64,000 bases of DNA. Source: Thermodesulfovibrio sp. (GTDB lineage: Bacteria; Nitrospirota; Thermodesulfovibrionia; Thermodesulfovibrionales; UBA6898). This document shows positions 13,249 to 54,348 of the stretch, one piece after another. The stretch's first letter is position 1. Every line of letters starts with the position of its first letter. Location of the stretch: contig PNOC01000006.1 in NCBI GenBank assembly GCA_013824615.1, positions 1 to 64,000 of the forward strand. Reading direction: 5' to 3'. The notes beneath the pieces are model-generated. The model worked only from the letters and a program-made list of their open reading frames with translations, ran no database searches and was not told where the DNA came from. The position numbers were made by a program, and so were the translations under genes.

Positions 13249-13740
13249 TCAATCGACCTTGGTAAACATCTTTTTTGCCTTGCAGATCGGGCACTCGTCA
13301 GGTGCCTCATTCTCTACCGTGTTGCCGCAGACCTGACAGACATAGTAGTCAGTGTCCTGATTCTTCCCGATGGCGTCGAGTGCCTTCTGGTAGAGATCGG
13401 CATGGATCTTCTCGACCTCATTGGCATAACTAAAGCTTCTGAGCGCACCTTTATTGCCTTCGGCCTCTGCATCCGCAATCATCTGGGGATACATGCTCTG
13501 GAACTCATGGGTTTCCCCGCCAATCGCCTCAGCAAGATTCTCCTTTGTGCCTTTTATCCCACCAAGTTCACGCAGATGGCTATGAGCATGAACTGTTTCG
13601 GCTTCTGCGGCTGCCCTGAAGAGTTTTGCTATCTGCTTAAACCCCTCTTCTTCAGCTTTTTTGGCAAATGCCAGATACTTTCTGTTTGCCTGGGATTCCC
13701 CGGCAAACGCTTCCTGCAGGTTCTTTTCCGATTTTGACAT
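13249..13740 (-). CDS. rbr: Rubrerythrin
   Basis: NADH-linked peroxide reductase of anaerobes, 163 residues. The N-terminal ferritin-like diiron domain shows LQEAFAGESQANRKYLAFAKKAEEEG and AAAEAETVHAHSHLRELGG, with later helices containing ETHEFQSMYPQMIADAEAEG and SYANEVEKIHADLY, which supply the usual Glu/His ligands. The C-terminal rubredoxin-like domain has CQVCG and CPICKAKK. It lies 47 bases after the selenocysteine peroxiredoxin and appears to be the last gene of the PerR operon. The domain order (diiron first) is classical. Confidence 0.95.
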   Translation of the reverse strand: MSKSEKNLQEAFAGESQANRKYLAFAKKAEEEGFKQIAKLFRAAAEAETVHAHSHLRELGGIKGTKENLAEAIGGETHEFQSMYPQMIADAEAEGNKGALRSFSYANEVEKIHADLYQKALDAIGKNQDTDYYVCQVCGNTVENEAPDECPICKAKKMFTKVD

Positions 13741-13787: not shown

Positions 13788-14414
13788 TTACTTGACTGCG
13801 TCGTATACCTTGCCGACCAGCTTGGCTGACGGCTTCAGCGTCGTGTCACCCTTCTGCTGCCAGTTGACGGGACAGGCCTCATCACCATGCGCCGCAAGAT
13901 AGACATTGGCCTTCACCTTGCGCAGAATTTCATCCATACTCCTGCCAAGATTGTAGTAATTCACCTCTATGTTGAAAAGCTTCCCATCAGGACTGATGAT
14001 AAAAGTTCCGCGCAGAGCGAGCCCGGTGGACTCATCCTGAACCCCGAACATCCGTGCTATATTCCCTGTGGGATCTGACCCCATTGAATACTTAACCTTT
14101 TCGAGCAGCTTCTCTTCCCGCTGCCATGCCAGATGGACAAACTTGGTATCGTTGCTGATCGTTATGATCTCAGCGCCTGCCTTCTTGAATTCACCGTGCA
14201 GCTCTGCCAGAGCCGCAAATTCGGTTGCTCAGACAAAGGTGAAATCGGCGGGGTAAAAGAAAAGCACCGCCCATTTCTTTTTTTGCTTCAGGGCAGCGAG
14301 ACTGAACTCTCCAAAATCACCCTTGGACGGCTCATACGTATCAATTTTGAAATCCGGCACCGTCTGCCCTACCCCAAGACAACAGCAATGCTCACTCATA
14401 CAATCATCACTCAT
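13788..14414 (-). CDS. Selenocysteine-containing peroxiredoxin (AhpC/TSA family), UGA read as Sec
   Basis: Thiol/selenol peroxidase that reduces H2O2 and organic peroxides. The frame is open from the ATG at 14414 (ideal AGGAGG eight bases before) to 13788 except for one TGA at 14229-14231, codon 62. That codon stands exactly where the peroxidatic Cys of the DFTFVCPTE motif belongs: upstream reads FYPADFTFV, downstream ATEFAALAELHGEFKKAG, so the site is FTFV-Sec-ATE. The second half contains the resolving-Cys region GDEACPVNW. Total 208 residues with Sec, normal for 2-Cys peroxiredoxin. A SECIS-like hairpin starts 13 bases after the TGA. The N-terminus is also Cys-rich (CMSEHCCC). A conventional gene caller would split this into two false fragments. 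Confidence 0.9.
14198..14216 (-). promoter_or_regulatory. Putative bacterial SECIS hairpin of the peroxiredoxin mRNA
   Basis: Starting 13 nucleotides after the UGA, GCGGCTCT pairs with AGAGCTGC (eight pairs, one G-U) around a three-base GGC loop. Bacterial SECIS elements lie immediately downstream of UGA and carry a G within the first two loop bases; both hold here. It overlaps coding sequence for FAALAELH. Confidence 0.65.
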
Positions 14415-14499
14415 TCTGAAATTCCTCCTTTTTTATTTAAAATCTTACTATGAAATTAGACCACTGTAAAGTGATCAGGTCCCGCGGTAAGCGATCAGG

Positions 14500-14703
14500 T
14501 CAATGAACCGTTGACTCACCATAAAACAACCTCTGACCGCAGAAAAAACATCTGGTTACCTCGGCCACTGTCCAGAACTCAATATCCAGACCGCAGTTTG
14601 GACAGGTCAGATACTCCGGCACCGGTTCACAGGTAACGGTAAAACAACCACTGCTTTTACTCTCTATATCTCCATTTTTCATGTAGTATCTCTCTTTCTG
14701 CAT
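14500..14703 (-). CDS. Small four-Cys zinc-ribbon protein in the PerR operon
   Basis: Protein of 67 residues with two Cys pairs, CPNCG and CFFCGQRLF, about 18 residues apart, plus an isolated Cys pair region near SSGCFTVTC. A GGGGG ribosome site precedes the ATG at 14703; the in-frame Met at 14682 is a second option. It sits 24 bases after perR and before the peroxiredoxin gene. I do not recognise a named family. The spacing is that of a zinc ribbon, but a small iron-binding electron carrier serving rubrerythrin or the peroxiredoxin cannot be excluded. Confidence 0.65.
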   Translation of the reverse strand: MQKERYYMKNGDIESKSSGCFTVTCEPVPEYLTCPNCGLDIEFWTVAEVTRCFFCGQRLFYGESTVH

Positions 14704-14726: not shown

Positions 14727-15131
14727 CTATTTTTTGCAGGATGGGCAGATGCCGTAAAACTCTATATGATGCCCAGTAATATCAAAATCTGCGTTACTGC
14801 CCTTCGCAACCTCGATGCTGAAATCCTCAAAGATATCCGCAATGCTGCGACAACTTCTGCAGATCAGGTGATGATGAGGCGTTGTGTCAGGGTCAAACCT
14901 CTTTTTTCCCACATCAATCGTAAGTTCCATCACTTTCCCTTTGCTGACCAGCATTTCGAGCGTGTTATACACTGTGGCAAACGACATAGTCGGAAATCTC
15001 ACACTGACCGACCGGTATATCTCCTCTGCAGACGGATGCTGCCTGTTGCCGTCGAGATACTCAAGAATAGCCATACGTTGAGGCGTCATCTTGAAATTTG
15101 AATTCTTATACTTTTCCAGCATGCTCTTCAT
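14727..15131 (-). CDS. perR: PerR-type Fur family peroxide-responsive repressor
   Basis: Metal-dependent repressor; 134 residues from the ATG at 15131. A longer reading from 15167 would start inside the promoter and is rejected. The winged helix shows KMTPQRMAILEYLDGNRQHPSAEEIYRSV and TVYNTLEMLVSKGKVMEL; the metal-binding half has TTPHHHLICRSC and a C-terminal CPSC, the two Cys pairs that hold structural zinc in PerR. The genes behind it (peroxiredoxin, rubrerythrin) and a PerR-like box in its own promoter support peroxide sensing over iron uptake control. ATG 15122 (MLEKYKN) is an alternative start. Confidence 0.88.
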   Translation of the reverse strand: MKSMLEKYKNSNFKMTPQRMAILEYLDGNRQHPSAEEIYRSVSVRFPTMSFATVYNTLEMLVSKGKVMELTIDVGKKRFDPDTTPHHHLICRSCRSIADIFEDFSIEVAKGSNADFDITGHHIEFYGICPSCKK

Positions 15132-15138
15132 AATGTTA

Positions 15139-15167
15139 ACTATATAGTTTATAATTATTATTGTCAA
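15139..15167 (-). promoter_or_regulatory. perR operon promoter with overlapping PerR-like box
   Basis: On the minus strand TTGACA (15167-15162, perfect -35) is followed by 17 bases and TATAGT (15144-15139, five of six matches to -10). Between them 15149-15163 reads TTATAATTATTATTG, matching 12 of the 14 specified bases of the Bacillus PerR box TTATAATNATTATAA, so a bound repressor would cover the promoter: autoregulation. The start ATG is only seven bases past the -10 box, so the mRNA may be leaderless or begin at the second ATG. Confidence 0.7.
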
Positions 15168-41381: not shown

Positions 41382-41713
41382 CTGCTGTACTCCTTTCTGA
41401 AAAAAAATTGTTAAATTATTCCAACCGGACAGTAAAACAGCATCGGACCCGTGAGCTATAACTATTTCTTATAAAACTATAGGACTATAGCATAACTTTA
41501 TGAGTCCATAAAAATTTATTATTTTTATAAAGTTAATAATATTTTTTTATAATGTAAGAAAAATAACATATCCCTGCCCTGAAATAAAAGAAAAGTCCGA
41601 TTGTTTTAACTTATAGCGTCATAAGATACGTCCGCGACAGGAGCAGCGGATCAGGCCCCGGACATCACCGGCCGGGGTACCAGGAGGTATCCAGCCGGCA
41701 GGCCCCGAAAAGG
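41382..41713 (-). promoter_or_regulatory. Leader and promoter region of the acs operon
   Basis: No gene fits here. Towards acsE the sequence is very AT-rich. The dyad TTTATG-AGTC-CATAAA (41497-41512) is a perfect operator-like palindrome, followed on the acsE side by CTATAG-GA-CTATAG (41477-41490, plus-strand coordinates), which includes a -10-like TATAGT on the minus strand. At 41652-41707 is a separate GC-rich hairpin. No riboswitch class was recognised. Confidence 0.4.
41652..41707. repeat. GC-rich hairpin bracketed by nine-base direct repeats
   Basis: CAGGCCCCG occurs at 41652-41660 and 41699-41707. Between them 41668-41698 folds into a twelve-pair hairpin (CCGGC with GCCGG, then GGGTACC with GGTATCC, one mismatch and one bulge) around an AGGA loop. 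It lies between the nitrite reductase terminator and the acs promoter region and matches no RNA family I know. Confidence 0.45.
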
Positions 41714-41756: not shown

Positions 41757-43439
41757 CTATTTTGCGGCAGTTTTTGCAGCCAGGGCGTCATTGATAATCT
41801 TGATCCCCTTTTGAGACTCGTCCACCGACTTGGTCAAAGACTCACGGGCCATTTCCGGATTATGGAACCCGTCTGAATTCTCAGCGGTCCAGTACTCCCA
41901 CAGAATATGCGCACGCAGGTGCTGGTCCTGCGCCTTTTTGATCACTTCCTCCGAAAGACCGGCCTTCTTGCCTTCGACGATCTTGTCGATGACTGCTGAA
42001 AGGTGGAATTCGGCCTTCCTCATCTTGCCTCTGATATGGGCCTTTACCGAATCGATGGAGTAACGGGCCATTTCTTCGGTCCACTTTGGATGGCACTTCA
42101 GGCAAGTCTCCTTAAGCTGAACTTTCGGAGTTACCGCGTAGTGCGACGTATAAACCTTGCCTGCCTTGCTTTTCAGCTTCGGCGTATGACAACTGTCACA
42201 GCCGACCCCTGCCCTGGCATGCTTAGAATCATAGTAGGACTCTGATTCCGGATGCTGAGCCTTCCAGAGAAGACCACCGGTAATGCCGTGTTTGAAGTCA
42301 AGGAAATTGATCTGGTTCACATAATGCTCGTACAGACCGAATACATCTTTATAAGGGAAATGATTTGTCCTCTGGTCGGTCATCTTTACCGGCTCACCAG
42401 TCTTGGTGTCCGTCCCGGGATTACAGTTGTACTCAACATGACACTGGCCGCACTGAAGCCGGGTGTCATACTTATCGAGTATCGCAATCTTGCGGTTAAA
42501 GCCCCTGACGCCCATATCAATGACCTTGAAATTCGTGCGCTTCGGATCCTTGTGCCAGAGCGTATCTGCCTCTTTACGGGTCAGCGCCTGGATAAGACCG
42601 TCACGTACAATCCTGGGCTTGGCTGCATGAGGGTCGTGACAGGTGAAGCAGTTGAGACCGTGCTGCAGGTCCTTTACATATTCAACAACGTTTGACGTCC
42701 GCGACCAGGTTGCACCCTTGACCGGGTCTCCCATATAGGCCCATTTCAGAATCTGGTCCTGGGTCTTGCACTGCATACATACCGGGTTGGCTGCTGCTGC
42801 AGACTGAGGAATAAAGGTCTTATGCTCCTTGCTCTCCGGATACTTGTCAACCAGTACGTCCCAAACCTTGCCTTTGTCAAAGATATAGTTCCAGCCGTTC
42901 TTCCCCTGAAACCGTCCGCCAAAGGCGCGGTCAACCGCAAACTGGTCGACGAGCATGTTGATGTGGCTTCTCGTCGTGTTATGCTCCTTGGTAAACCCAT
43001 GACCTGCCATAAGTTTGTCCCAGTAAGGGTTTGGAGACCTGCCGGCGAGCTGAGATTTCTCGTCCCTTGCAGGCCGGTGATAGGCCTCCTGCATAAAGCT
43101 TTCGAACTGCTCCTTATGACATTGTCCGCAGGCCTGCCATGACATGTCCGTCGTTGGCCTCGTATCAGGCCCGGGATTATTGAGATGCTTATCGAGACCT
43201 TTGTGGCACTGCACACAGTTGAGTTTGGCGTGTTTTCCCATCTTGTGGAGTTCTTTCACCGGTGCATGACATCCGTAACACACCTCTGCTTTGACCGATT
43301 TTTCCTGCTGCGATGCCTCTTTCTCCGGTTTTGCCCCTGCCTCACCCTTTGGCTTTGCATCAGCGGATGACAGATACAGCCCTGACACAAAGACACTGCT
43401 TACAAACAAAGCAGCTACAGCAAACATTTTCCCTTTCAT
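41757..43439 (-). CDS. Octahaem cytochrome c nitrite reductase (ONR; NrfA-like)
   Basis: Periplasmic enzyme reducing nitrite (and possibly hydroxylamine) to ammonia. It has 560 residues, a signal peptide (1-28) and eight haem sites: CXXCH at 54, 75, 104, 264, 330, 414 and 446, and the catalytic CXXCK (CMQCK) at 221-225, where Lys replaces His as in NrfA. The last five haems follow the pentahaem NrfA order; the first three are the ONR extension known from Thioalkalivibrio. Active-site landmarks are CGQCHVEYNC (Tyr near the Ca site) and KAQHPESE (His). Single gene with its own terminator; an FNR-like box lies 150 bases upstream. Confidence 0.9.
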   Translation of the reverse strand: MKGKMFAVAALFVSSVFVSGLYLSSADAKPKGEAGAKPEKEASQQEKSVKAEVCYGCHAPVKELHKMGKHAKLNCVQCHKGLDKHLNNPGPDTRPTTDMSWQACGQCHKEQFESFMQEAYHRPARDEKSQLAGRSPNPYWDKLMAGHGFTKEHNTTRSHINMLVDQFAVDRAFGGRFQGKNGWNYIFDKGKVWDVLVDKYPESKEHKTFIPQSAAAANPVCMQCKTQDQILKWAYMGDPVKGATWSRTSNVVEYVKDLQHGLNCFTCHDPHAAKPRIVRDGLIQALTRKEADTLWHKDPKRTNFKVIDMGVRGFNRKIAILDKYDTRLQCGQCHVEYNCNPGTDTKTGEPVKMTDQRTNHFPYKDVFGLYEHYVNQINFLDFKHGITGGLLWKAQHPESESYYDSKHARAGVGCDSCHTPKLKSKAGKVYTSHYAVTPKVQLKETCLKCHPKWTEEMARYSIDSVKAHIRGKMRKAEFHLSAVIDKIVEGKKAGLSEEVIKKAQDQHLRAHILWEYWTAENSDGFHNPEMARESLTKSVDESQKGIKIINDALAAKTAAK

Positions 43440-50306: not shown

Positions 50307-51139
50307 TCCCCGGCCCCGGGTTCAGCTCCGGGTTCCTTCCTGCCTCCCCGCTCCCGAAACCTGATCAGTGCCACCATACCCATCAGAAAAGCAGAGAGTT
50401 GTGCCCCGCCCTTGTTGATAAGTGAGAGCTTTCTGCGCTGCTGCACAACCGGGTTCTCAGGCAGACCATAGACAGCAGGATTTTCCATCAGCAGATAAAA
50501 TACCTTTAGCCCGCCGGCTTCGCTATACCCGTAAAGATTAGCCTTGTTTTCACCGAGTTTTCTGAGCTGAGCAAGGCGGGAGTCGGCCTTTGTCTTCAGC
50601 TCGGAAACCTCGCCGAACTGTATCGAACCGGTCGGACAGGACTTGGAACAGGCTGTCCCCATGTTGTTATGGATGCGGTCATTACAGAGCGTACATTTAT
50701 GAGAGGTGCGGGTCTTCTCGCTGTATCGCACCACCCCGTACGGGCAGGCCTTGTTGCATAATTTGGTGCCGACACATTTGTCCTGCCGCACGATGACATT
50801 ACCGAGGTCAGTACGTTCTATGGCCTCCACCGGGCAGACGTTTAAACAGGCCGCGTCCGTACAGTGCTTACATGAATCGCTCATGAAAAGCCAGCGCGAT
50901 GCCGTGCGGCGTGAATTGATCTGCTCGATGAACAGAACGTGCCGCCAGTCCCTCGCACTCAGCTTTCCGGTGTTGTCATATGAGTTGCCGGTAAAATTGC
51001 TGGCCACCGGATAGGGAGCTCCCGGCCCTTGAGTAAAGTGGTCAGGTTCGGCCTCAAGCCCATTCCACTCCTTGCAGGCCACCTGGCATGCCTTGCAGCC
51101 TGTGCATATAGAGGTATCAACAAACATTCCCTTTGCCAT
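50303..51139 (-). CDS. fdhB: Formate dehydrogenase iron-sulfur subunit FdhB
   Basis: Electron-transfer subunit of 278 residues from ATG 51139, which overlaps the fdhA stop (TGATG). It carries four 4Fe-4S motifs: CTGCKACQVACKEW, CKHCTDAACLNVCP, CVGTKLCNKACPYG and CTLCNDRIHNNMGTACSKSCPTG. One C-terminal hydrophobic segment (LSAFLMGMVALIRF) may anchor it to the membrane, as in FdnH. A cytochrome b subunit is not encoded next to it, so the quinone or cytochrome partner is unknown. Confidence 0.92.
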   Translation of the reverse strand: MAKGMFVDTSICTGCKACQVACKEWNGLEAEPDHFTQGPGAPYPVASNFTGNSYDNTGKLSARDWRHVLFIEQINSRRTASRWLFMSDSCKHCTDAACLNVCPVEAIERTDLGNVIVRQDKCVGTKLCNKACPYGVVRYSEKTRTSHKCTLCNDRIHNNMGTACSKSCPTGSIQFGEVSELKTKADSRLAQLRKLGENKANLYGYSEAGGLKVFYLLMENPAVYGLPENPVVQQRRKLSLINKGGAQLSAFLMGMVALIRFRERGGRKEPGAEPGAGE

Positions 51140-54100
51140 CAGACCGTACCTCCTTTCCTGCCCGCACGTACATTGCACGTAAAGACCTTCCCTTCATGGA
51201 TAGAGACGTTGGGATCAGCCACAAGCGCACTGAGGTTGTTCACCACGTCGCCCTGTGCCGTGCCCTGCCAGCCCCAGTGCCACGGCATACCAATCTGATG
51301 CACGGTTTTCCCGTTAATCACGAAAGGCTTCATGCGGCGGGTCACCAGCGCCCGTGCCTGGATCTCCCCCCGCGCCGTCCAGATGGTCATATACTCACCG
51401 TTCATGATGCCCTTATCGACTGCCAGTTCCGGTGAGATCTCGCAGAACAGTTCAGGCATCAACTCCGCCAGCCACGGCAGCCATCTGCTCATGACCCCGC
51501 TCAGGTAATGCTCGGTAAGCCGGTACGTCGATATGACGATCGGATAATCAGGATCGGCCACCTTATGATACGGGTTGCCCGCAATCTTCCAGACCTTTGC
51601 AACAGGGTTGGATTCCTGTTTATAAAGAACATTGTTAACAGGTGATTCATATGGCTCATAATGGGTCGGCAAAGGACCATCGACCAGACCTGCGGGTGCA
51701 AAGAGCCAGGCCTTGCCGTCAGCGCGCATGATGAAGGGATCGTTGCCCCCCAGCCAGTCAAAGCCGATGCCGGCGTCTTTGCCGGCAGAACCCGGGGCCT
51801 TCGTAAGCGCAAAGTCTATACCATCTCCGGACGGCGTAAGCCATTTACTGCTAACGGCATCCCAGTAGACAAGCTTCTTTTTTTCCGACCAGGGATTGCC
51901 CTTCGTGTCAGCAGAGGCCCGATTATACATGATATGACGGTTTGCCGGCCACGCGAATCCCCAGTTTGGCGAGATCCAGTTATCGCCCTGACGACGCGCC
52001 GACTGGTTCTTGCCCTCCTCAGGAATAACGCCGGTGTAAATCCAGGCGCCGCAGACGGTAGAGCCGTCTTCCGCAAGGTTCGCAAATGAGGGAACAGGCT
52101 TTTTATCTTTCCAGATATAGCCGTTAATCTCCTTGAGCGCCTTATAGGCAGAGGGCTCGTCCTTGATACGCCAGTTCGCCACTTCCGCCGGCTCAGGCTC
52201 ATAGTCCCACGTCAGGTTCCTGATCGCCCAGTCCCGCTCGCGGGTAGAATCCTTGTAGAGCGCCTTGATTTTCTTGCCCAGGTGGTACGTAAACCAGAGA
52301 TTGCTGCGGGAATCGTCGGGTGGATCGGCGGCTTTTTCATGATATTGCAGCAGCCGCTGGGTATTGGTAAAAGAACCCTCCATTTCCGGCACACACGCAG
52401 AAGGCAGATAAAATATCTCTGTCTTTATGTCCGCTGTCTTGAGCTCTCCCGACTTGATCTCGGGCGAGTTGCGCCAGAAGGAGGCGGTCTCGGTCTCATA
52501 GAAATCCCTCACCACCATCCAGTCCAGCTTTGCAAGCGCTTTTCGCTGGAACCTGGCGTTCTGACCGCCGACAGCAGGGTTCTGCCCCACGCAGAGAAAC
52601 CCTTTGATCTTTCCGTCCATCATGTCCACAAACATCGGCAAATGGGAATGATCACCGGTAATCTTGGGATGGTAATGATACCCATAATCGTTCTCCCTGG
52701 TTGCCGCGTCGCCGAACTGGGCCTTAAAGTATGAGACGGCAAATTTGGGATAGTTGCCCCAGTAACTCGTCGAAACCGGGACCGCCTCGGTCAGGATAAA
52801 ATCTTTCAGAGAGTCGTGATTCCGGCGGGCATCGGGCATATTCAGGTAACCAGGAAGGGAATGATACAGCGTGGCGATGTCGGTTGATCCCTGAATAGTT
52901 GAATGACCACGCAGGGCCAGGATTCCGCCCCCCGGCCTTCCGATGTTGCCAAGCAGCGCCTGGAGCATGCCTGCGCAGCGGATGATCTGTACCCCGACCG
53001 TGTGCTGGGTCCAGCCGACAGCGTAGGTTATGTTCGATGTCTTGTCTCGTCCCGAATTATTCAGCAGCGTTTCGGCAACGCGGAGAAAGGTTTCCTTCGG
53101 GCATCCGCAGACGCGCTCGACCATCTCAGGCGTATAGCGGGCATAGTGCTTTTTGACGATCTGGAATACGGTCTGGGGATCCTGAAGCGTCATATCGGTC
53201 TTCGGTCTGCCGGGTACACGCTGCAGCAGGAGATCCGTAAAGGTTTTGGCCTCGCTTACCGTAGACGCAGGCGCCGGGTTGCGCTGATATGACCAACTGG
53301 CATTTGAATACGTCTTGCCGTCGCCGGAAAGTCCTGAGAAGACGCCGTCGAGATCGTCAGGATCCTTGAAGTCGGCATTTACCAGCGTTGCGGCATTCGT
53401 ATAATTGATCACATATTCCTTGAAAAACGGGTCTGAATTCCAGCGGCTGCTGTTGATGACGTACGTAATAAGTGCACCGAGAAAGACAATGTCACTGCCT
53501 GCCCGGATCTGCGCGTGAATGTCGCAGAGGGCCGAGGTCCGCGTAAAACGCGGATCAACATGCATCAGGACCGCACCATGCTCTGTTTTTGCCTTGAGCG
53601 GCCAACGGAACGCCACAGGATGGCACTCTGCCATGTTAGAACCCATGATCATAACTGCGTCGGAATTGACGAGATCACGGGGAAACGTTGTCGAACCACC
53701 CCGTCCAAACGTGACCCCCAGCCCGGGGACCGTGGAGGAGTGTCATATTCGGGCCTGGTTCTCTACATAGACAACGCCCAGGCCGTGCATAAGCTTCTGC
53801 TGTGCATAATTCCATTCGTTATCGATCGTCGCACCGCCGAGTGAAGCCAGGGCATAGGTGTTCATCACCCGTTTTTTCGCCTTGCCTCCCTTGCCATCCG
53901 GGAGCTCCTCGAACTCATTAAAGTTTGCATCGCGGGTCTCTTTGACCAGTTTGGCGATACGGTCCATGGCCCAGTCCAGTGGCTTCTCTTCCCAGTGATC
54001 ACTGCCCGGTGCGCGGTACTTGACCTTTGTCCAGCGATGCTCGTTCATGACAAGCTGATAGGTTGCCGCACCTTTCGGACAGAGGGTGCCTTCGCTTATT

Positions 54101-54348
54101 GGCGAATCAGGGTTTCCCTCGATGCCGATGATCTTGCCGGCATCGTTGACCATAACAATCTGACCGCAGCCAACAGAGCAGAACGGACAGATGCTCGGCA
54201 CCTGCTTCCCTGTCTTAATCGGGACACTGAGCGCACGGCCCTGCACCGCCGCAGTATCCACCCCCAGAGCCGCTGTTTCTGTGGCAACAACGGCACCAAT
54301 AGCACCTGCTGAAATCTTAATAAATTGTCGACGGGTGACGTTCATCAT
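51139..54348 (-). CDS. fdhA: Tat-exported formate dehydrogenase catalytic subunit, selenocysteine at UGA
   Basis: Molybdo- or tungstopterin enzyme oxidising formate to CO2, 1069 residues. The twin-arginine signal is TRRQFIK (5-11). The 4Fe-4S motif uses Cys54, 57, 61 and 90 (CPFCSVGCG, then LCPKGA). An in-frame TGA at 53743-53745 (codon 202) lies in NQARI-Sec-HSSTVPGLGVTFGRG, the position of Sec in E. coli FdnG (NQARV-Sec-HGPT). Downstream MIMGSNMAECHPVAFRWPLK and the C-terminal molybdopterin-dinucleotide domain (TYRLTEHYLSGVMSRW) are intact. AAGGAGG precedes the ATG pair. Orthodox callers would report two fragments. Confidence 0.95.
53713..53730 (-). promoter_or_regulatory. Putative SECIS hairpin of the fdhA mRNA
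   Basis: Starting 13 nucleotides after the UGA, GTCCCC pairs with GGGGGTC (includes G-U pairs) around a loop beginning GGG. Distance and G-first loop agree with bacterial SECIS elements and with the hairpin after the peroxiredoxin UGA. Confidence 0.6.

Follow-up and report, generated by a model that had tools for sequence, protein, structure and literature searches.

Selenocysteine (Sec) peroxiredoxins are an established family that includes PrxU of Eubacterium acidaminophilum (Sohling 2001, cited in PMC13188914; NCBIfam NF040737). Zhang et al. 2006 reported 12 cases of Sec peroxiredoxins, and for this family the table of that paper gives five Cys-to-Sec events and zero Sec-to-Cys events (PMC1794560). 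The change from Sec to Cys is described as the rarer direction and has been seen mainly in FdhA and SelD (PMC1794560, PMC13188914). The passages on Sec peroxiredoxins in Zhang et al. and in the 2026 review (PMC13188914) make no mention of Nitrospirota, and a search of the literature outside subscription journals found no paper on a Sec peroxiredoxin in this phylum.

The gene considered here, prx, lies in a 64-kb window (the whole stretch of DNA that was analysed) from a 3.6 Mb Nitrospirota MAG, and is an AhpC-type member of the family with a resolving Cys. It resembles the bacterial Sec peroxiredoxins of Zhang et al. 2006 and the 2026 review in its TxxU motif and in a SECIS element immediately downstream (PMC1794560, PMC13188914). 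With PrxU it has in common the AhpC/TSA peroxiredoxin domain, the peroxidatic Sec in the TxxU motif and UGA decoding with a SECIS. Unlike PrxU, however, the protein reaches 176.6 bits (about 177) with the NCBIfam PrxU model, below its 270-bit curated cut-off, and scores higher with the AhpC model (TIGR03137; 192.9 bits, best of all models, below the 272-bit curated cut-off). Since the equivalog cut-offs of both AhpC and PrxU are missed, the subfamily label is a loose one. Compared with the Salmonella-type AhpC (PDB 1yf1; aligned residues 33-203), the fold, the peroxidatic position and the resolving Cys in EACPxxW are alike, but the window protein has Sec for Cys and Ala for the Pro that follows (UATE versus CPTE).

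The prx gene and its active site

The prx gene occupies 13788..14414 on the minus strand, and its ATG is preceded by a GGAGG ribosome-binding site (14424..14428, minus strand). When TGA is translated as U, this interval gives 208 residues with U62 and zero other stops. The preliminary description had joined two reading frames, 14229-14414 and 13788-14084, into one gene broken by a TGA in place of the peroxidatic Cys codon. The coordinates and frames given there are exact, and both halves belong to one protein with an AhpC/TSA domain (Pfam, E 1.4e-36). The alignment to AhpC and PrxU proteins that it proposed as a check gives homology to both, AhpC scoring higher. No second copy of prx was found in the source genome.

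The TGA at 14231-14229 (14229..14231, minus strand), predicted to be read as Sec, lies within the active-site motif YPADFTFVUATEF. The best PDB match is to AhpC chains (E 7e-46), whose peroxidatic Cys aligns with U62 and whose resolving Cys aligns with C181. The PxxxTxxU pattern of Sec peroxiredoxins is present as PADFTFVU, together with the AhpC/TSA domain and the in-frame TGA. The predicted resolving Cys181 lies in EACPVNW, which corresponds to the C-terminal xCPxxW context of the typical 2-Cys (AhpC/Prx1) peroxiredoxins. This residue is retained in 94 of 96 readable Sec orthologues. The other two (L154 and L170, from genomes G213 and G179) have Val at the position, which suggests that they are of a one-Sec type. 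These comparisons support the core interpretation offered at first, that a Sec occupies the peroxidatic position of an AhpC-type peroxiredoxin.

UGA recoding and the SECIS hairpin

The bacterial SECIS (bSECIS) is a hairpin at 14197..14217 on the minus strand, formed by UGCGGCUCU-GGC-AGAGCUGCA, with 9 perfect pairs and the GGC loop at 14208-14206. The hairpin and its G-first loop had been described correctly. Its start had been placed 13 bases after the TGA; the actual distance is 11 nt, and the loop begins 20 nt after the TGA. In the bSECIS model the apical loop has 3-9 nt, the upper stem has 4-16 bp, a G stands in the first two loop positions, and the distance from the UGA is 16-37 nt (PMC13188914). 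The prx hairpin agrees with all of these (loop GGC, 9 bp, 20 nt). A scan of the 64-kb window against Rfam at gathering thresholds gave zero matches, so the bSECIS was judged by conservation. The local fold of the hairpin region as a single sequence has a z-score of -2.25, a value reached by 5 of 200 shuffles, which is modest evidence when taken alone. Because a single-sequence z-score is too weak, a null model of redrawn synonymous codons and the contrast between Sec and Cys orthologues were used.

Orthologues were collected from the order, where 135 of 176 genomes gave a match, and from the phylum (395 genomes). These searches replaced a single-protein scan of genome contigs, which gave one relative, its peptide patterns being too specific. 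The set examined comprised about 150 loci, including that of the window gene, and 140 orthologues have a readable active site, with TGA in 97 and TGC or TGT in 43. In all 97 TGA orthologues the loop starts with GG, and no fewer than 7 of the 9 stem pairs form. A GG loop with at least 5 unbroken inner pairs occurs in 87 of the 97, against 2.5 expected under the synonymous codon redraw, and in none of the 43 TGC/TGT orthologues. The stem also shows compensated pairs among orthologues, with GC/AT/CG swaps at +15/+29, +17/+27 and +18/+26 and paired changes such as GCTCT/AGAGC, GATCT/AGATC and GACCT/AGGTC. The hairpin can thus be taken as certain because it is conserved across orthologues, and the contrast between Sec and Cys genes settles, in our assessment, the recoding and its signal, excluding both a pseudogene and a sequencing error.

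The TGA could be a real stop, leaving a decayed pseudogene or two fragments. In favour of this, table 11 lists TGA as a stop, and ORF calling gives the two halves separately. Against this, the 97 orthologues, which come from many families, keep TGA at the exact codon with frames that are otherwise open, and the hairpin is more strongly conserved than the protein sequence alone would demand. We consider a real stop very improbable and, on these genomic comparisons, already refuted by conservation.

The genome is also equipped for Sec insertion. The preliminary description had proposed a search for selA, selB, selC and selD, and all four are present. The tRNA-Sec scores 69.5 bits and has the anticodon UCA; selB (369 bits) adjoins selA (613 bits) on contig 20 of the source genome; and selD has an in-frame TGA of its own (CAGUAAK, U11 of the matched stretch). 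A second RF01852 match above the cut-off was rejected as a second tRNA-Sec, being a tRNA-Cys with a GCA anticodon. The second selenoprotein gene noticed in the window, fdhA (51139..54348, minus strand), is confirmed by an in-frame TGA at 53745-53743 in the motif ARIUHSS and is given here as context only. Near-cognate tRNAs might instead insert Cys or Trp at the UGA, and the replacement of Sec by Cys in sister genes indicates that Cys would function at the site. We give this very little credence, however, as the genome has all of selA, selB, selC and selD and the gene has a canonical SECIS, plain read-through would not need a hairpin, and the tRNA-Cys just mentioned has the ordinary GCA anticodon and is not one that reads UGA.

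An error in sequencing or assembly of a TGC or TGT codon is scarcely conceivable: the nearest relative (L021/L022; 88% identical protein) does have TGC, but it encodes near-identical amino acids through a loop that reads TGC and a broken stem, whereas the hairpin of the window gene is perfect, the next relatives (G153 and G154) have TGA and the hairpin, and 97 orthologues with TGA at the same codon exclude it.

The gene is thus, with very high probability on the evidence of its sequence and its relatives, an AhpC/Prx1-type 2-Cys peroxiredoxin gene in an operon probably controlled by PerR, with Sec in place of the peroxidatic Cys and a UGA decoded through SelB and the SECIS.

Gene order, probable regulation and proposed catalytic cycle

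On the minus strand the gene order is perR, a 67-aa Cys-rich ORF, prx and rubrerythrin. The perR gene (14727..15131) encodes a Fur-family peroxide regulator of 134 aa (FUR, 2e-28), for which the PerR model is the best match. The rubrerythrin gene (13249..13740; 163 aa) lies directly downstream of prx. Both neighbours agree with the PerR / rubrerythrin operon first proposed for prx. The small protein encoded between perR and prx (14500..14703) is conserved there and zinc-ribbon-like with two CxxC pairs, and it has no match in Pfam or NCBIfam. This CxxC ORF is conserved ahead of prx in 19 loci of the Sec form and 2 of the Cys form.

A sigma-70-like promoter of the perR operon, TTGACA-17-TATAGT, is predicted at 15139..15167 on the minus strand (11/12 match), and a PerR-box-like palindrome lies within it at 15149..15163. 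The Bacillus PerR box has the consensus TTATAATNATTATAA. The palindrome, CAATAATAATTATAA, has 12 of the 14 bases of this consensus, the reference being that of Bacillus. Matches at the 12/14 level number two in the whole window, against 0.12 expected. The second (2 mismatches) is found at 41516-41530, near a multi-CxxCH cytochrome-like ORF (41757-43439). Among the 41 orthologue loci that have perR upstream of prx, 20 have PerR boxes of 12-13/14 upstream of perR (13/25 Sec, 3/5 Cys-Ala and 4/11 Cys-Pro). The perR-prx-rubrerythrin order occurs in part of the family only, with PerR upstream in 27 and rubrerythrin downstream in 16 of the 97 Sec loci. It is likely that prx belongs to a peroxide-derepressed operon. 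It would be transcribed with perR and rubrerythrin from the promoter covered by the PerR box and, as the promoter is covered in this way, peroxide or oxygen would be expected to induce it.

In the proposed mechanism, SelB carrying Sec-tRNA-Sec would bind the hairpin just 3' of the UGA, and Sec would be inserted at residue 62 without termination. The U62 selenolate would then attack H2O2 or organic peroxides, and the resulting selenenic acid would react with the resolving Cys181 from the partner subunit to give an intersubunit selenenylsulfide. This bond could be reduced by thioredoxin and thioredoxin reductase or by an AhpF-like partner; genes of the thioredoxin-reductase family are present elsewhere in the source genome. 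The retention of the resolving Cys in nearly all Sec orthologues makes such a selenenic acid/selenenylsulfide/thioredoxin cycle likely, the cycle being taken from the family. Sec insertion in vivo is inferred, as are the catalytic activity, the route of resolution, the source of electrons and the induction by peroxide.

Distribution and history of the Sec form in Nitrospirota

The preliminary description regarded Sec peroxiredoxins as known in a few anaerobes, which was an overstatement, as the form is widespread in Nitrospirota. It also saw an unusual feature in the CCC-containing N-terminus. CC is in fact common there, as 66 of the 97 Sec orthologues have it and so do 23 of the 24 with Cys(Ala), and a functional novelty of this N-terminus was rejected, the segment being variable and occurring also in Cys forms. 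In one genome, G420, prx is present twice, both times with Sec (L143, L144). A second group of Sec peroxiredoxins in the same order (L122-L130) is about 42% identical, with a longer N-terminus, no resolving Cys and a different hairpin, and genome G160 has both kinds. A search of plasmids for relatives gave ordinary AhpC only, at less than 60% identity.

When the columns for the active site and the SECIS are left out of the trees, the Sec orthologues all fall within one clade (support 99/96), which is itself surrounded by Cys genes that have CPTE. Five groups of Cys genes lie inside this clade: the sister species (G152/L021), G009 with G010, family f9 with G022/G023, G315, and G196. Forcing these five groups into one clade is rejected (p-AU 0.001). 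The residue after the active site, encoded at 14228-14226 in the window gene, is Ala in 97 of 97 Sec genes (UATE) and in all nested Cys genes (CATE), and Pro in the basal Cys genes (CPTE). The shortest history by parsimony is one gain and five losses, with 6 changes. A genome of the window's genus, G155, has TGT at the active-site codon, in a gene that lies on two contig ends.

From these trees and alignments, the AhpC-type peroxiredoxins of Nitrospirota probably gained Sec once, together with a change from Pro to Ala, and then reverted to Cys at least about five times, mostly in genomes that make selenoproteins. In the simplest history the reversions went with loss of the SECIS, and the Ala was retained. 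The nested Cys forms might instead not be reversions, Sec having been gained many times from Cys(Ala) ancestors, and parsimony counts alone give no direction. We regard this as unlikely, however, given the position of the Sec clade within Cys-Pro sequences, its five separate Cys(Ala) groups, the rejection of their single origin, the distribution of Ala and Pro, and the shorter count of changes for a single gain. The gene selB is retained in G152, G155, G009, G010, G023 and most of f9, and therefore in these genomes reversion, if the single-gain history is correct, cannot be put down to a lost Sec system. As the literature holds reversions to be rarer and to occur mainly in FdhA and SelD, the reversion series in peroxiredoxin is the new part.

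Because standard ORF calling splits the gene in two, annotations of many Nitrospirota probably misrepresent a main peroxide defence. Natural Sec/Cys pairs occur in the family, such as the window gene and its 88%-identical sister, both from genomes with selB. Such pairs would allow a direct test of the benefit of selenium to a peroxidase, in rate or in resistance to over-oxidation, and of what drives its loss. If one gain was indeed followed by repeated losses, peroxiredoxin would join FdhA and SelD among the families in which Sec often gives way to Cys again. The Ala that stays behind would then permanently label proteins that once contained Sec, and its presence in place of Pro beside the active site could serve as a sequence test for them.
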